DNA from: Candidatus Rifleibacteriota bacterium
GTDB lineage: Bacteria; Riflebacteria; Ozemobacteria; Ozemobacterales; Ozemobacteraceae
DNA: 15,540 nucleotides
Reading direction: 5' to 3'
Assembly: GCA_017526725.1 (NCBI GenBank)
Contig: JAFXRA010000178.1
Location: 1 to 15,540, forward strand
Part shown: piece after piece, positions 1,667 to 13,207 of the stretch
Layout of the letters: each line of letters begins with the position of its first letter
Numbering within the stretch: the first letter of the stretch is position 1
Translations under genes and position numbers: made by a program
Notes under the pieces: generated by a model
The model's input: the letters and a program-made list of their open reading frames with translations, nothing else
Database searches by the model: none
What the model was told of the DNA's origin: nothing

Positions 1667-1672
1667 TATAAT
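1667..1672 (+). promoter_or_regulatory. Candidate -10 box for the leader RNA
   Basis: A perfect TATAAT. TG lies four bases before it, one base off the extended -10 spacing. The -35 region at 17 bases (GAAGAA, 1644-1649) is poor. A start about 7 bases downstream would put the first transcribed base at about 1679-1680, exactly where the predicted RNA fold begins, and this coincidence is the main support. Confidence 0.42.
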
Positions 1673-1679
1673 TTAAAAA

Positions 1680-1766
1680 TTTCAGCTTGTAGTATCTGTT
1701 TAAACCCACCGAAGGATATACTATGAGGACTAAGACGAATCGGATAACCCCCCTCTTGGCCTGAAA
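1680..1766 (+). ncRNA. Candidate structured 5' leader RNA (three-way junction)
   Basis: By hand the segment folds into three helices around a tight junction. P1 is UUUCAG 1680-1685 with CUGAAA 1761-1766. P2 is a 10-pair helix, 1686-1695 with 1718-1727 (CUUGUAGUAU with AUACUAUGAG, two G-U pairs). P3 is CUAAGA 1730-1735 with UCUUGG 1754-1759. The two large loops contain complementary CCGA (1709-1712) and UCGG (1740-1743), which could kiss. Both loops also contain GGAUA. In contrast to the AT-only sequence upstream, this piece is GC-bearing, begins just after a TATAAT box, and ends 4 bases before an AAGGAG ribosome site for a 42-codon ORF. I do not recognise it as any riboswitch class I know. 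It might be a cis-regulatory RNA or an untranslated leader with no ligand. No energy calculation or covariation test was possible. Confidence 0.42.
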
Positions 1767-1785
1767 AATTAAGGAGCAAACCTAA

Positions 1786-1914
1786 ATGATAAATATAGAA
1801 AATAAAAAAAGAAACAATGTTCTCTACGATGGTATTGTTTGGTTCGTCTCAAAACCTCTATTTACTACAGTGTTCTTCCCAGAACGCTTAGTAGAAATCA
1901 AAATAAACAGATAG
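1786..1914 (+). CDS. Small ORF, 42 residues, between leader RNA and Ser-rich protein gene
   Basis: ATG at 1786-1788 to TAG at 1912-1914. AAGGAG at 1771-1776, nine bases before the ATG, is a good ribosome binding site. The peptide begins MINIENKKRNNVLYDG and has a hydrophobic middle (residues 17-31: Ile, Val, Trp, Phe, Val, then Lys-Pro, then Leu-Phe-Thr-Thr-Val-Phe-Phe) and a charged end (PERLVEIKINR). It is too interrupted to be a clear transmembrane helix. The next gene starts 23 bases after the stop, so it could be a leader peptide coupling translation to the 435-residue protein, or a small protein in its own right. I recognise no family. There is no run of one amino acid of the kind that marks classical attenuators. 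Confidence 0.45.
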   Translation: MINIENKKRNNVLYDGIVWFVSKPLFTTVFFPERLVEIKINR

Positions 1915-1937
1915 AACAGTTAAATAAGGAGGCAGAT

Positions 1938-3245
1938 ATGTCCTGTATCAATGATATTACCGCAAAGGCTACAACTTCAGTTTTTGGTCAGACTTATAAC
2001 TCAGATTCAAATGTTCAGTCTGCTGAAGATTCTGCTGAAAGCTTTGATTCAGTAATGCTCCAGGCTCTTAAAAACTGCAACGGTAAAAGACCAGAACATG
2101 TTTGCTGCTGTGGAAATCCTGTAGTTGAAGAAGAAGCTCTTTCTGAAAAAGTTGAAGAATTAGAAACAGAAAAAGATGATTCTATTCTTGCTGCTTCTGT
2201 AGAACAGGCAGTAAAGGCAGACAAATCCGAAGCAACTGAAGAAGAAAAGCTATCTGCAGGTTCCTGTTTCACAATGTTTATCAAAATCAGTGCACGCATT
2301 ACAACAAAGGTTAGTGATGTAGTAAGCGGAAAATTCAAAGATACTACTCTTGCTTTCGCAGATGCTCTTAAGGCAGACAAATCCTATAATGAAAATGTTC
2401 TTAAAGCTTTTATGCAGAAAACAGATGAAAAGATTGCTTCTCAGACAGAAGATTTGAAAAACTATCTGTCTAACTATCTGGATAACATGTTTGCTGCTCT
2501 TCAATCTTCAGTCAGCGGTTTGAATTCAACCCTGCTTTCTTCTTCAAATCTTCTTGGAAATTCTCTTTCCAGCTATTCAAATTTATTAAGTAACTCAAGC
2601 CTTTTAAGCTCTTCTGCTCTATTGGGTTCAGGAAGTTCTTTGGGTTCTAACTTGTTATCTGGTCTGACTTCTGCAATGAGTAACTATGCTAATTCTTCCA
2701 GTTTGGCAGGTTATTCTGCAATTGATGCTGCTAATACTCAAATTAATGCTCTGCTCAGCGGAACTTCAAATTATTCTTATGGTATCGGAACCTCTTTAAA
2801 TACTAATAGATATGCTGGCAGAAACCTCTCTCTCATTAAAAGTTCAGAAGTTGGTACCTCCGCATCAGGCGGATTAAAGATGGTTGATACTAAGGGCAAT
2901 ACCACCACAGGCGTTGCTGCAACAGGTATTGAAATAGGTGATTCATCAGCTAAATCAGTAGCAAAAGTAGTTTCTAACTCAAATACCGCATCTGGCGAAG
3001 CAGTCGCAGAAGTTGTTAATGATACAGAAATAGTTCCTGAAGTTGATGTTGTTAAAGTAGAAGAACCTAAAGTTGAAATAAAAGCGGTTTCAAATGATGA
3101 CGTAGATGTTTATGTAAAAGCTTTGAACCGCAAAAATAGAATTGTAGATATTTTCAAAGAAATGATTCTCAGCTCTTTGAATGGTCAGAATGATAATGAT
3201 GATATTAAAAACATAGATGCTAAAATCAGCATCTCAATCGCGTAA
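1938..3245 (+). CDS. Unrecognised Ser/Leu/Asn-rich protein, 435 residues
   Basis: I chose the ATG at 1938 because a consensus AAGGAGG (1926-1932) lies five bases before it; the same frame extends upstream to a TTG at 1839, but that has no ribosome site. No signal peptide or transmembrane helix is visible. Regions in order: Ser/Asp-rich start (1-50), a Cys cluster CCC at 56-58 with further Cys at 3, 47 and 110, a Glu-rich segment (63-104), a predicted amphipathic helical region (115-188), a low-complexity Ser-Leu-Asn tract with repeated SNLL/SSLL/GSNLL units (190-262), a Gly/Thr-rich part (270-335), a Val/Glu/Lys stretch (340-385), and a short helical C-terminus (388-415). The layout suggests a structural or self-assembling protein rather than an enzyme, but this is only impression. 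A terminator follows at 3434-3459, after a hairpin-chain repeat. Confidence 0.75.
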   Translation: MSCINDITAKATTSVFGQTYNSDSNVQSAEDSAESFDSVMLQALKNCNGKRPEHVCCCGNPVVEEEALSEKVEELETEKDDSILAASVEQAVKADKSEATEEEKLSAGSCFTMFIKISARITTKVSDVVSGKFKDTTLAFADALKADKSYNENVLKAFMQKTDEKIASQTEDLKNYLSNYLDNMFAALQSSVSGLNSTLLSSSNLLGNSLSSYSNLLSNSSLLSSSALLGSGSSLGSNLLSGLTSAMSNYANSSSLAGYSAIDAANTQINALLSGTSNYSYGIGTSLNTNRYAGRNLSLIKSSEVGTSASGGLKMVDTKGNTTTGVAATGIEIGDSSAKSVAKVVSNSNTASGEAVAEVVNDTEIVPEVDVVKVEEPKVEIKAVSNDDVDVYVKALNRKNRIVDIFKEMILSSLNGQNDNDDIKNIDAKISISIA

Positions 3246-3433: not shown

Positions 3434-3459
3434 GCCGCTAATCAGCGGCTCTTTTTTTT
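3434..3459 (+). terminator. Rho-independent terminator of the Ser-rich protein gene
   Basis: GCCGCT (3434-3439), loop AATC, AGCGGC (3444-3449), then TC and a run of eight T (3452-3459). There is no T run on the other strand, so it acts for the plus-strand gene only. It overlaps the end of the convergent methyltransferase gene by two bases. Confidence 0.88.
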
Positions 3460-9498: not shown

Positions 9499-11076
9499 AT
9501 GAATAAAGATTATTACAACAATAATAGAGATTATTATAATAAAGAATACGGCCCTAATAGTTCTAAAAATTGGCATTTAAAACTTTTGCCTGTCGCTGTT
9601 ATTATAATCATTTCTTTGCTGATAGTAGAGGACGAGTTTTCCGGCAAGAATAGAATAAAGAAATTTTTTAATTTATTTCAGAGAAAGATAGAAACAGTTT
9701 TAAAAGGTGATGACAAAGGTAATGATAGAGCAGACGACTCTAAGAATGGAACATATACTACAAATGATGGCTCTGAAAAATTAGAAGAAAAAGCAGACAG
9801 CAAATTAACATTCAGTGAAGTAGAGAAAAAATATAAAGAAAAATATGCTCATCTTTATGAATTGCAGGAAAATGATTTGTTAGAAATCGTTACCGATGAT
9901 GAACAACAGAGTCTTGTTTTGACTAAAATTGCCTTAGACAAAGATTACAGTAAGCTTCTCGATGAGATTATCAAGAAAAATTCTAATATAGTTAACAGCG
10001 ATAAAATAGGTGATAATTCTTTGATTTATGCGGCTGAAAAGCATAGCCGAAAATGTGTCGAAGTTTTAATTAATCATGGAGCAGACTTGAAGTTCGAACT
10101 TGAAGATGGCAGAAATATGCTTCATGTTGCTGCTAAAAACTATAATATTCCATTAGCTAAACAAGCTTTAATGGCTGGAATTCCCGTAGATAAAAAGACC
10201 AAAACCGGCAAAAGTCCATTATATTATGCTGTAAAAAATAACGATATAATTATGACTTGTTTTCTTGTTGATTGTGGGGCTGATAGAGAAGATAATTCTC
10301 TGAGATCGCTTACAAATGATAAAAAAATTCAAAAGTTTCTTAAAGATGGTAAAAAGCCCGCAAAATATCTGGATGTTAACTCTGAATTAACGCCTGAAGA
10401 AAAAGAATGGCAAGAGGCTTATGAATATATAAGAGATGGTAAACTAACTGATTTATATAATCTTGCAAAAAGTGGGAAAGATTTACTTAAAATGACTTAT
10501 CATGGTGAACCAGCCCCATGTATTGCGGCCAAATATGGTCAGTATGAAATTTTAAAATATTTACTTCATGAATTTGATTGTAAAAACCTGGTCGATTATG
10601 AAATGGGGCGCAATGCTTTGCACTATGCAGTTCAACAATCTAATGAGCAGATTGTTGATTTGCTTATTCAGAATGGTTTTGATGTGAATTCTACAGATCT
10701 ATACAATAACACTCCTTTACATTACGCTGTTTCTAACCCTTTCCCATATAATGTTCAGATATTAATTCATCACGGTGCAGACTCAGACAAGTACAATCTG
10801 AAAAAACAGACTCCTTTGCATATGGCAGCAATAAAAGGAAATTCTATGGCTGTAAATCTGTTCGTGAAAGAAGGGGCAGATGTTAATTTTCAAGATTATC
10901 TCGGAAATACAGCATTACATTATATAAATATGTATATGCAGGATAAAAAAGTATTGGATGTCTTATATCAAAATAAAATTAAATTAAATCTTGATATTAA
11001 AAACAGAGATGGAAAAACACCTCGTGATATACGTTATTTTGATTATTTTGATTATTACGAAGAACATTATAGATGA
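9499..11076 (+). CDS. Membrane-anchored ankyrin-repeat protein 1 (module order A-B)
   Basis: 525 residues. The N-terminus is Asn/Tyr-rich (MNKDYYNNNRDYYNKEYG), then one transmembrane helix at 28-43, a basic/acidic linker to about 130, and two ankyrin blocks. Module A (about 134-285) contains ankyrin signatures such as GDNSLIYAAEKHSRKCVEVLI, split here as GDNSLIYAAE at 171-180 with NHGADL at 192-197, DGRNMLHVAAKN and TGKSPLYYAVKN, and ends in a run of Asp/Lys. Module B (about 304-525) holds GRNALHYAV 370-378, NNTPLHYAV 403-411, KQTPLHMAA 436-444 and GNTALHY 469-475, and ends RDGKTPRDIRYFDYFDYYEE. Ankyrins mediate protein binding; the partner is unknown. The gene follows DUF445 by 20 bases and precedes a paralogue by 40 bases, with weak ribosome sites at both, which suggests translation within one operon. 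Confidence 0.9.
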   Translation: MNKDYYNNNRDYYNKEYGPNSSKNWHLKLLPVAVIIIISLLIVEDEFSGKNRIKKFFNLFQRKIETVLKGDDKGNDRADDSKNGTYTTNDGSEKLEEKADSKLTFSEVEKKYKEKYAHLYELQENDLLEIVTDDEQQSLVLTKIALDKDYSKLLDEIIKKNSNIVNSDKIGDNSLIYAAEKHSRKCVEVLINHGADLKFELEDGRNMLHVAAKNYNIPLAKQALMAGIPVDKKTKTGKSPLYYAVKNNDIIMTCFLVDCGADREDNSLRSLTNDKKIQKFLKDGKKPAKYLDVNSELTPEEKEWQEAYEYIRDGKLTDLYNLAKSGKDLLKMTYHGEPAPCIAAKYGQYEILKYLLHEFDCKNLVDYEMGRNALHYAVQQSNEQIVDLLIQNGFDVNSTDLYNNTPLHYAVSNPFPYNVQILIHHGADSDKYNLKKQTPLHMAAIKGNSMAVNLFVKEGADVNFQDYLGNTALHYINMYMQDKKVLDVLYQNKIKLNLDIKNRDGKTPRDIRYFDYFDYYEEHYR

Positions 11077-11116: not shown

Positions 11117-13207
11117 ATGGGAATGAAGGATTACGAAGTTCGAAATAAGGATTATTCTTCAGGGGAATACCATAATAATGGTAATAATTCCTACGGTAAT
11201 AATCCGAATTATAAAAATGATAATTCTAATTTTATAGGAATAATTTTTTTAATCTTCTGTATTTTAAGTTTTGGAACATTTGTTGCTTTTTATTATGATT
11301 TTGAAGCCCATACCTCAAAAAAAGACTTAGCTGAGTTCAAGTCTTCCGAACAACCAAAAAGTTCTCCTTTGTCTTCTAATAATTCTTCTGAAAAATCCAA
11401 AATAGATAATTCATCAAATATTTCAAACAATACTAATTCTGGGAGTGACTCTGAGTTCTATAATAAATTAATGAAAAAAATTCAAAAAAAATCTTACTTT
11501 AGTAGAGAAAATAATAAACCATTTGGTAAAAAGAAAACTCCCTTAGAAATTCAGCAGGAAGAAGAAAGAAAAAAAATAATTGAGGCAAAAAGAATTAGTA
11601 TTTTTGGAAATGTAAAAGATTCGAAAGAATCTTCTACTCAAAACACTAAGCAAGATAAGACAGAATGGACTAACGCCAAACAGGACAATAAACCAGTCCC
11701 TGTTACCCCAGATGTTGGTAAGTCTAATAATAGTGAAATTGCTAATGATAATATAGTTTCTAGCACATTAAGTAAAACAGAAAACATAGATAATGCCGTT
11801 TCTATTCCAGAAGAAACAAAACCTAAGAACAATAACGAAAATGAAGAAATCTATAATTATATAAAGAATGGTGAACTGATTAACATTTTTATGCTTTCCG
11901 AAAAAGGAAAGAAAATTGAGCAATACTATTATAATAACGAACCTGCTGTTTGTATTGCTGTCCGATATGATAGATTTGAAATTCTGAAATTTTTGATTCA
12001 TGAATTTGATTTTAAGAAAACTGTTAATACGGAAAACAAACGTAATGCTTTGCACTATGCTGTAATTTATTACAATCTTAATACTGTTCGATTTCTTCTT
12101 GATAACGGTTTTTCTCCCAATGAAAAAGATTCTGAAGGAAATACACCTCTGCATTATGCTGTTGCAAATAATTTGCTGGAATGTGTCAGGATGCTTCAGA
12201 GCCAAGGCGCGGACCTGAATATTTTAAATAATAATAAACAAAATGCGCTTCATTTTGCGGTCAAGAACGATAATGCTGACATGGTAGGCTTTTTAGTAAA
12301 AAAAGGGGCAAATCTCAATCAGCAGGATAATGATGGCAACACACCTTTGCATTATTGTGCCATGTTTTCTTTGGATAACAGGCCATTGATGAAAGAATTA
12401 TATAAATATGGAGAAAAATTTGATTTAAGCATAAAAAACAATAATGGTAAAACCCCTCGTAATGTTAAAGAAACTGATTGTTTTGATAATTATGAAAAAT
12501 GGCGTAAGGAAGAAATAAAACAGATTAATGCTAAACAAGAAAATAAAACTGGTGAAACAAAGGATAAACCAGTTCATCTTGAAAAATATCTTGTTTTTAA
12601 TGAGGAAACTTGTATAGATGAAGCGGCAAATGATTTTTCGCTTGCCAATGAATATGTGTTTTGTCCAGCAGGCCCTATTGTTGTTCCAATTCAACCTGCG
12701 TTGGTCAGACCTTTCCTTGCACAAATAGCTATCGAAAAGGACCATGCTGTGTTTTTGGAAAAACTCTGCAAAGATAATTTTCATCCGATTAATGAACCGG
12801 AAAAGTTTGTTCCTATTAATACAAAGGTATTATTATCTTTGGTTTTGATCGCTGCGGATAAGAATAGCAGAAAATGTGTGGATGTTCTTATCGATAATGG
12901 GGCAGATTTGAAAATTGAGGCTCAAAAACCCAAAGAAAAGCAAAAAGAATATGTTGAAGAAGGTAAGACTTTGCTTCATTGTGCTGCTCAATATGGAAAT
13001 ATTGATTTGATGAAGAAAGTTATAGCTGCAGGGGTTCCGATAGATAAAAAGACGGCTTCAGGAAGAACTCCGCTTTATTTTGCTGTTATAAACAATCAGT
13101 ATGAGTCTGTTTATATACTTTTAGAAAATGGCGCTGCTAGAGAAGATAGTTTAAAGTCAGAAACCAAAGATGAAAAGATGCTCAAACTCTTAGAAACGGG
13201 AAAATAG
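11117..13207 (+). CDS. Membrane-anchored ankyrin-repeat protein 2 (module order B-A)
   Basis: 696 residues. Asn/Tyr-rich N-terminus (MKDYEVRNKDYSSGEYHN), transmembrane helix 39-60, then about 180 residues of polar, Ser/Asn/Lys-rich low-complexity linker. Module B' (244-467) matches the second half of ankyrin protein 1: NNEPAVCIAVRYDRFEILKF corresponds to HGEPAPCIAAKYGQYEILKY there, followed by RNALHYAV, GNTPLHYAV, QNALHFAV, GNTPLHY and NNGKTPRNV. A second linker (468-527) has Cys499 and Cys516. Module A' (528-696) matches the first half of protein 1: NSRKCVDVLIDNGADLKI, KTLLHCAAQYGN, VPIDKKTASGRTPLYFAV and GAAREDSLKSETKDEK. Two near-by ATGs (11117 and 11123) are both possible starts. It is the last gene of the operon, followed 36 bases later by paired hairpin repeats. 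Function is unknown beyond binding. Confidence 0.9.
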   Translation: MGMKDYEVRNKDYSSGEYHNNGNNSYGNNPNYKNDNSNFIGIIFLIFCILSFGTFVAFYYDFEAHTSKKDLAEFKSSEQPKSSPLSSNNSSEKSKIDNSSNISNNTNSGSDSEFYNKLMKKIQKKSYFSRENNKPFGKKKTPLEIQQEEERKKIIEAKRISIFGNVKDSKESSTQNTKQDKTEWTNAKQDNKPVPVTPDVGKSNNSEIANDNIVSSTLSKTENIDNAVSIPEETKPKNNNENEEIYNYIKNGELINIFMLSEKGKKIEQYYYNNEPAVCIAVRYDRFEILKFLIHEFDFKKTVNTENKRNALHYAVIYYNLNTVRFLLDNGFSPNEKDSEGNTPLHYAVANNLLECVRMLQSQGADLNILNNNKQNALHFAVKNDNADMVGFLVKKGANLNQQDNDGNTPLHYCAMFSLDNRPLMKELYKYGEKFDLSIKNNNGKTPRNVKETDCFDNYEKWRKEEIKQINAKQENKTGETKDKPVHLEKYLVFNEETCIDEAANDFSLANEYVFCPAGPIVVPIQPALVRPFLAQIAIEKDHAVFLEKLCKDNFHPINEPEKFVPINTKVLLSLVLIAADKNSRKCVDVLIDNGADLKIEAQKPKEKQKEYVEEGKTLLHCAAQYGNIDLMKKVIAAGVPIDKKTASGRTPLYFAVINNQYESVYILLENGAAREDSLKSETKDEKMLKLLETGK

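Follow-up and report, generated by a model that had tools for sequence, protein, structure and literature searches.

A 15,540-nucleotide (nt) stretch of DNA from Candidatus Riflebacteria (the window) contains a 42-codon open reading frame (ORF) followed by a 435-codon gene for a Ser-rich protein, each with its own Shine-Dalgarno (SD) sequence, and, ahead of the 42-codon ORF, a conserved leader. With a probability of about 0.7, we consider this leader to be, in these gut bacteria, the pairing site of a multicopy family of small RNAs (sRNAs) that is peculiar to one branch of the Riflebacteria and whose 5' ends (the seeds) are complementary to the leader. The features of the locus, all on the + strand, are as follows.

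1667-1672, +: TATAAT box, a possible sigma-70-type -10 element, read in the sequence; no covarying fold depends on it
1704-1785, +: conserved leader, present once in each of 16 Riflebacteria genomes out of 39, from the alignment and genome searches
1707-1714, +: CACCGAAG, in the position taken in distant leaders by a sigma-28-type -10 element (GACGATAA and similar)
1726-1744, +: upstream conserved half of the leader, AGGACUAAGACGAAUCGGA
1748-1757, +: pyrimidine tract CCCCCCUCUU
1758-1785, +: first predicted sRNA pairing site, GGCCUGAAAAAUUAAGGAGCAAACCUAA, which spans the SD of the 42-codon ORF
1771-1776, +: AAGGAG, SD of the 42-codon ORF, read in the sequence
1786-1914, +: 42-codon ORF (39 to 44 codons across the 16 genomes)
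1922-1933, +: second predicted sRNA pairing site, AAAUAAGGAGGC, with 12 nt of complementarity to the seed, at the SD of the 435-codon gene
1938-3245, +: gene for the 435-codon Ser-rich protein, with no Pfam match at E ≤ 1
3434-3459, +: inverted repeat and T run, the probable terminator of the transcription unit, identified by eye

All counts of leaders and sRNA-like units refer to the 39 Riflebacteria genomes returned for the phylum (labeled G001 and so on). A DNA search of these genomes gave some match at E ≤ 0.01 in 18 of them, and 12 of the 18 contain the leader; a sequence-only model detects those 12 at E ≤ 3.2e-18 and gives weaker matches in G016 (5.2e-6), G021 (0.0035), G019 (0.031), and G020 (0.213). 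Weaker matches to this model are abundant (32 of the 39 genomes at E ≤ 1), and these four were accepted because the leader layout is present, followed by a 39- to 40-codon ORF whose product ends in GR; G019, G020, and G021 also have a larger ORF of like layout, judged by eye, behind it. The leader is thus found in 16 of the 39 genomes, with one accepted copy in each. In G001 (locus L001), the nearest relative compared, it is 99% identical to the window over 96 nt. A search of viral contigs with one 23-base piece of the leader returned 0 exact matches.

Many of the weak matches to the leader model cover the last third of the leader and lie on the opposite strand of a repeated unit. Read on its own strand, this unit consists of gTtAAcaAAAcaTCA...CGAAAaGGtTtAT, then GGATTTGTTTGCCTCCTTATTTTTCAG, and then an inverted repeat of the CCGGG...CCCGG type with a T run. 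The pattern GGATTTGTTTGCCTCCTTA, with up to 2 mismatches, occurs in 94 places in 23 of the 39 genomes, and the reversed pattern in 3; all 16 leader genomes fall within these 23. Five places (L155, L156, L179, L184, and L186) were dropped before all further counts because inspection showed the promoter-like motif or the terminator to be missing, which left 89 copies, 1 to 7 per genome (G012 has one). In a set of 381 relatives, the 342 genomes outside the phylum set yielded only two-mismatch places, 14 of them in 13 genomes. The predicted RNA begins near AUGGAUUUG and is ~55 to 60 nt long up to the T run; it carries at its 5' end a mostly unpaired seed of 29 nt, most commonly in the form AUGGAUUUGUUUGCCUCCUUAUUUUUCAG, with an intrinsic terminator after it. 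Folding of the 85 copies of sufficient length leaves, on average, 77% of the first 27 nt unpaired. Among 46 copies in nine genomes, the nearest long upstream frame lies on the same strand in 23 cases and on the opposite strand in 20 (in 3 it was not found), so the units do not fit mere 3' ends of upstream genes. Read in this way, the anatomy of the unit, with promoter motif, 5' seed, and terminator, is that of a small sRNA. The several near-identical copies per genome and, as sequence features, the promoter-like motif, single-stranded seed, and terminator place it with the multicopy SD-blocking sRNAs, and we infer that the window's own genome carries such sRNAs as well.

In the window's clade, a variant of the unit with UAGGAUUUG...UUUAUUCG is also present. 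A variant class, UAGGAUUUGUUUGCCUCCUUAUUUAUUCG, has a different upstream region (loci L163, L182, L183, L159, and L170, in G001, G002, G003, and G022) and may have another target. In G019, G020, and G021 (contigs C7, C96, and C203), two sRNA units are found in tandem, ~110 to 125 nt apart, with a second Hfq match ~11 kb off on the same contig. Hfq is encoded in 38 of the 39 genomes, and the exception, G038, has no seed; two Hfq matches are seen in 19 of the 23 genomes with a seed versus 3 of the 16 without, in raw counts uncorrected for relatedness.

The complementarity between units and leader is extensive: bulges aside, leader positions 1758 to 1781 (GGCCUGAAAAAUUAAGGAGCAAAC) are reverse-complementary to the 5' end of the unit, and the leader sequence GGCCUGAAAAAU(U)AAGGAG(G)CAAAC is the reverse complement of the end of the seed with one or two small bulges. 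The predicted duplex includes the segment CUGAAAAAU/AUUUUUCAG, and in 15 genomes the duplexes formed by 35 nt of the genome's own sRNAs have energies between -22 and -50 kcal/mol. Energy by itself is a weak argument, given that an anti-SD is part of the seed; the case for pairing rests on the way in which the leader tracks the seeds of its own genome. Thus, in G022 the leader has A7 and 4 of the 5 seeds have U7; in G016, G019, G020, and G021, the leader has C for U and the seeds have G for A (11 of 11); and in G001 to G003, the leader has an extra U and 4 of the 17 seeds contain CCUUAAUUUUC. The mean edit distance between the leader segment and the seeds of the same genome is 1.01, compared with 1.72 after permutation, and none of 3002 permutations was as low, a figure inflated by shared history, as the permutations ignore shared ancestry. 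One G021 seed was mis-parsed in this test, which counts against the reading. With the genomes collapsed to seven hand-drawn clades, 5040 arrangements are possible and just the 6 tied ones do as well. Complementarity to the target SD therefore appears to be kept by compensatory changes, with ancestry handled by clade collapse only. In a BLAST search of the 39 genomes with one 61-nt sRNA, the leader ranks first among non-sRNA places in G009, G010, G017, G018, and G023 and is tied for first in G024, G025, and G027.

The promoters of the units appear, from their motif, to be of the sigma-28 type. They were scored against the Escherichia coli sigma-28 consensus, TAAAGTTT-n11-GCCGATAA as given in PMC2859248, by the sum of TAAA and GCCGATAA with spacers of 14 to 16 and a maximum of 12. 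In 80 of the 89 units, 7 nt separate the end of the best match from the seed, and the mean score is 8.84 of 12 versus 7.00 for resampled sequence. In 10 of the 17 leaders, GGCC follows the end of the best match at a distance of 39 to 41 nt (single p values of 0.01 to 0.11). The CGA within the 1707-1714 element is invariant in all 13 aligned leaders; the sigma-28 scan of the window passes over this site. A TATAAT box or a close variant is also present in the near relatives G001, G002, and G003, and either this box or the CCGA element is a possible promoter of the window's leader, with a predicted start near 1680 or near 1720, respectively. A FliA-type sigma factor scores over the cut-off in 38 of the 39 genomes.

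In the mechanism that we propose, several sRNA copies would pair over the SDs of both reading frames of the unit, and in the window's clade the strongest pairing would be at AAAUAAGGAGGC, before the 435-codon gene. Covering of the SDs would repress both ORFs, probably with the help of Hfq; initiation is usually impeded by pairing over an SD, a case in point being LhrC on lapB as reported in PMC4132741. The sigma-28-type motifs on the sRNA units and on many distant leaders suggest that the sRNAs and their target probably belong to the late flagellar program, where they would make up a feed-forward loop, with translation held back by the sRNAs as long as the mRNA does not outnumber them. Transcription of the sRNAs, its dependence on sigma-28, the help of Hfq, repression, and flagellar timing are steps that we infer; the units, their copy number, promoter-like motif, seed, and terminator, and their complementarity to and tracking of the leader between species can be read from the genomes themselves. 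A broader picture, which we offer tentatively and at somewhat less than even odds, is that one branch of the Riflebacteria has an added layer of RNA control in its late flagellar program: up to seven sibling sRNAs per genome, driven by sigma-28, would share a single seed conserved across great divergence and would have as their main partner one conserved leader, placed before the genes for a small lineage-specific protein and for a Ser-rich protein that varies; flgL and further sigma-28 genes would be secondary targets.

Several observations weigh against such a role of the leader, which is predicted from sequence. G011 to G015, G026, and G028 have seeds and no leader was found in them; 11 weak leader places in these genomes were inspected and none is a leader (the leader of G020, L074, was a twelfth such place). 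The pairing does not explain the invariant upstream half of the leader (CUAAGACGAAUCGG), and a pattern search gave no trans partner for it. A second trans RNA directed at this half was considered and rejected: GACTAAGACGAATCGGA is found exactly once in each of 9 genomes and with one mismatch in G009, all ten of these places are the leader itself, and the other 15 places have two mismatches and are fewer than the 52 obtained with the reversed control. The consensus seed pairs with leaders at -17.9 to -29.3 kcal/mol, to be compared with a mean of -15.1 (standard deviation, 5.7) for 92 other ribosome-binding sites (RBSs). A genome's own seeds pair better with its leader than do the seeds of other genomes in 14 of 15 genomes, with small margins (0.2 to 4.1 kcal/mol) and with G001 as the exception. 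As for the promoters, the best sigma-28-type match is off the expected place in 7 of the 17 leaders (the window, G001, G002, G003, G022, G016, and G020), and a matrix derived from the sRNA promoters reaches p ≤ 0.05 in just 3 of 16 leaders, at the expected place in G022 and G009 and elsewhere in G016. A strict sigma-28 match was found in only 2 of 15 flagellin-like control genes (20 were fetched, 5 of them lacked a start, and at least one start, in G020, looks wrong). Finally, G018, the lone genome without a FliA match over the cut-off, has both the leader and the sRNAs.

An earlier note on this DNA proposed a structured, riboswitch-like RNA with a three-way junction and possibly kissing loops that controls the downstream pair of ORFs. 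The letters that it named are all in place: the TATAAT box, the strands of P1 (1680-1685/1761-1766), P2 (1686-1695/1718-1727), and P3 (1730-1735/1754-1759), the loop letters CCGA (1709-1712) and UCGG (1740-1743), AAGGAG, the 42-codon ORF, and AAGGAGG ahead of the 435-codon gene. P1 to P3 do occur in the minimum-energy fold of 1675-1775, but this fold is no more stable than shuffled sequence (-15.2 kcal/mol versus a shuffled mean of -15.87; z = 0.24; 113 of 200 shuffles at least as stable). Lack of covariation in P1 to P3 had been named beforehand as an outcome that would refute the fold, and none was found in either the close or the wider alignment. The close set comprises 5 sequences (4 distinct), and 77.3% of its cells are paired, as are 77.3% with shuffled columns (P1, 75%; P2, 65%; P3, 100% but invariant); in the wider set (13 sequences, 12 distinct), the values are 63.1% and 63.5%, the covariation score is below the shuffled mean, with 480 of 500 shuffles at least as high, and one P3 pair is broken in 8 of 12. 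The proposed structure pairs better than copies of it slid by 1 to 3 columns, as is to be expected of a structure drawn from one of these sequences. RNAalifold, applied to the 13 sequences, returned 4 pairs and zero compensatory changes. Conservation is weak where the 5' strands of P1 and P2 lie, whereas the stretch from 1704 to the start codon is nearly fixed. In 10 of the 17 leaders, a group that does not include the window, a transcript started from the best sigma-28-type match would begin downstream of these 5' strands. Rfam 15 at gathering thresholds gave no match for the window or for twelve sRNA loci, and a relaxed search of 1550-1960 and nine leader loci gave three matches, all far under the gathering scores of their families. 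What is conserved in the leader is its primary sequence and not a fold. The junction, the kissing loops, and the comparison to riboswitches are accordingly abandoned, and we regard a structured switch as very improbable; the view of the locus as an undescribed regulatory leader before a ribosome site is retained, and this leader very probably controls the downstream pair. The pyrimidine tract at 1748-1757 could, judged by eye, form a weak cis pairing with the SD. We give just as little credence to ribosome stalling on a leader peptide, MRTKTNRITPLLA, encoded by a 13-codon ORF at 1723-1764: an SD-like GAAGGA precedes its AUG and, as judged by eye, the window, G001, G002, and G022 keep an open frame, but G003 has lost the AUG and the distant leaders checked lack the frame despite conserving the nucleotides at this place.

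It is also conceivable, if unlikely, that the letters shared by leader and seed merely reflect an extended strong RBS and an anti-SD, so that the sRNAs act mainly on other mRNAs, with control of the leader exerted in cis or by a protein. Any AAGGAGGC can be matched by the GCCUCCUU of the seed, some of the 92 other RBSs reach -23 to -26 kcal/mol, and the upstream half of the leader is equally conserved and pairs with no known RNA. However, the complementarity extends past the SD on both sides, the length of the A run, the U/C versus A/G choice, and the extra U follow the seeds of the same genome, and the leader has the genome-wide first rank, alone or tied, in the eight genomes listed above. 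Alternatively, the pairing could be real and its outcome different, with the leader acting as a sponge for the sRNAs or the pairing stabilizing or activating the mRNA. Competition of this kind is made plausible by the single leader facing several sRNA copies and by similar sites in RBSs of the sigma-28 set, namely those of flgL and the MNVNE gene (described below) in some clades. Against it, the site covers an SD beside a start codon, where the pairing of LhrC with lapB impedes translation, according to PMC4132741, and the ORF behind the site is conserved; we consider this outcome rather unlikely. Repression by the repeated sRNAs, paired over the SDs, remains our preferred account of the leader.

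Several other RBSs are predicted to pair with the sRNAs. At the second RBS, AAAUAAGGAGGC, the energies are -26.6 to -31.9 in the window's clade, compared to -19.1 to -23.3 at the leader site, and -18.7 to -29.9 outside this clade; the second RBSs of relatives make up four of the five best when placed among the 92 background RBSs. The flgL RBS corresponds to AAUAAGGAGCAAACAAA with 0 (G001), 1 (G003), and 1 (G002) mismatches. This pattern with up to 2 mismatches occurs in 101 places versus 67 for the reversed control, for which reason only the places with 0 or 1 mismatch before flgL were used. For flgL, 29 loci were compared: the averages run from -9.4 to -28.2 in the 21 with own seeds and from -9.3 to -18.7 in the 8 without, for which the consensus seed was used. 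This suggests that flgL is a convincing target in some clades only and a weak one in several others. The flgL gene of G001 has a promoter score of 11 of 12. The gene whose product begins with MNVNE (L313, L315, and L184, in G001, G003, and G002, respectively) has an RBS with GGCAAACAAAUCCAGGAGGCA or nearly so, complementary to the sRNA, and a sigma-28-like promoter in all three genomes; it has no clear Pfam match. L184, dropped from the sRNA counts, is a candidate target instead. A gene whose product begins with MRQTK (L317 in G009, L319 in G027) starts inside a seed-complementary stretch, shows S-layer homology-like stretches by eye, and has a sigma-28-like motif upstream in G027.

As to the proteins encoded behind the leader, a Pfam scan of eight ORFs of the window left the 42- and 435-residue proteins without a match. 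The 42-codon ORF differs from its counterpart in G001 by 9 synonymous codons and 1 nonsynonymous codon and from that in G003 by 10 and 3, respectively, and looks protein-coding in close relatives, judging from these changes; in more distant pairs, nonsynonymous codons are as many or more (10 to 15 for the window and G022). Its product ends in R in all but one of the 16 genomes; the exception, G027, has Q. A larger second ORF follows in 15 of the 16 leader genomes, and none was found in the available stretch behind the short ORF of G016. At L032 (G018) and L035 (G017), the second ORF has just 128 and 121 residues versus 323 to 437 elsewhere and retains a YGKGYNLSLI-like stretch. A protein search with the 435-residue protein gave 29 homologs, itself counted; a relative of it is encoded on three genome contigs, and the G001 protein is 83% identical to it in the best segment. 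The AlphaFold2 model of this protein has a mean pLDDT (predicted local distance difference test) of 43.4. Other genes of the window are ordinary neighbors by Pfam and encode a Sel1-repeat protein, a methyltransferase, an adenosine deaminase, a Cache/guanylate-cyclase protein, a DUF445 protein, and a urocanase. Two adjacent ORFs of 525 and 696 residues (9499-11076 and 11117-13207) look ankyrin-repeat-like from their translations alone.

If correct, these predictions would describe a self-contained sRNA regulon of an uncultured phylum, seen through covariation between RNA molecules rather than within one. They would extend flagellar sRNA control beyond the groups in the literature that we found, with several sibling RNAs coevolving with one leader, and would offer a regulatory entry point to two functionally uncharacterized protein families. 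As the seed, its copies, and the target are all defined from sequence alone, the claim is directly testable. In the open-license literature (subscription papers and preprints being outside its scope), no article that mentions Riflebacteria also mentions "small RNA," and no Riflebacteria sibling sRNA was found in the literature searched.

Comparable RNAs have been described in other bacteria. The sigma-28-dependent sRNAs of E. coli, UhpU, MotR, FliX, and FlgO, are, like the units described here, short base-pairing RNAs assigned to the flagellar sigma factor, and they act on flagellar as well as other genes; as presented in PMC10578931, they are derived from untranslated regions, each has its own sequence, and they are conserved among some Enterobacteriaceae. 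In contrast, the Riflebacteria units are intergenic and come in several near-identical copies with one shared seed, and their sigma-28 dependence is predicted from the motif. In Campylobacter jejuni, FlmE (CJnc230) and FlmR (CJnc170) are sRNAs of the flagellar hierarchy, and FlmR is FliA dependent; the portions of PMC11187230 consulted describe no multicopy family and name other targets, flgM included, a comparison made by description only. Sibling sRNAs, i.e., related sRNAs within one genome, can have redundant or distinct roles, according to PMC4211561. A parallel in the predicted mode of action is provided by LhrC1-5 of Listeria, multicopy SD-blocking sRNAs alongside which PMC4132741 mentions the csRNAs of Streptococcus. 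Like LhrC1-5, the Riflebacteria units occur in several near-identical copies and have a C-rich single-stranded stretch predicted to pair over an SD; unlike what is described for LhrC in that source, they measure ~55 to 60 nt to the T run and have one seed, a sigma-28-type motif, and a cognate leader that covaries with the seed. Multicopy SD-blocking sRNAs as such are thus already known; what is new here is the combination of a sigma-28-type motif with a cognate leader that has been kept across the branch.
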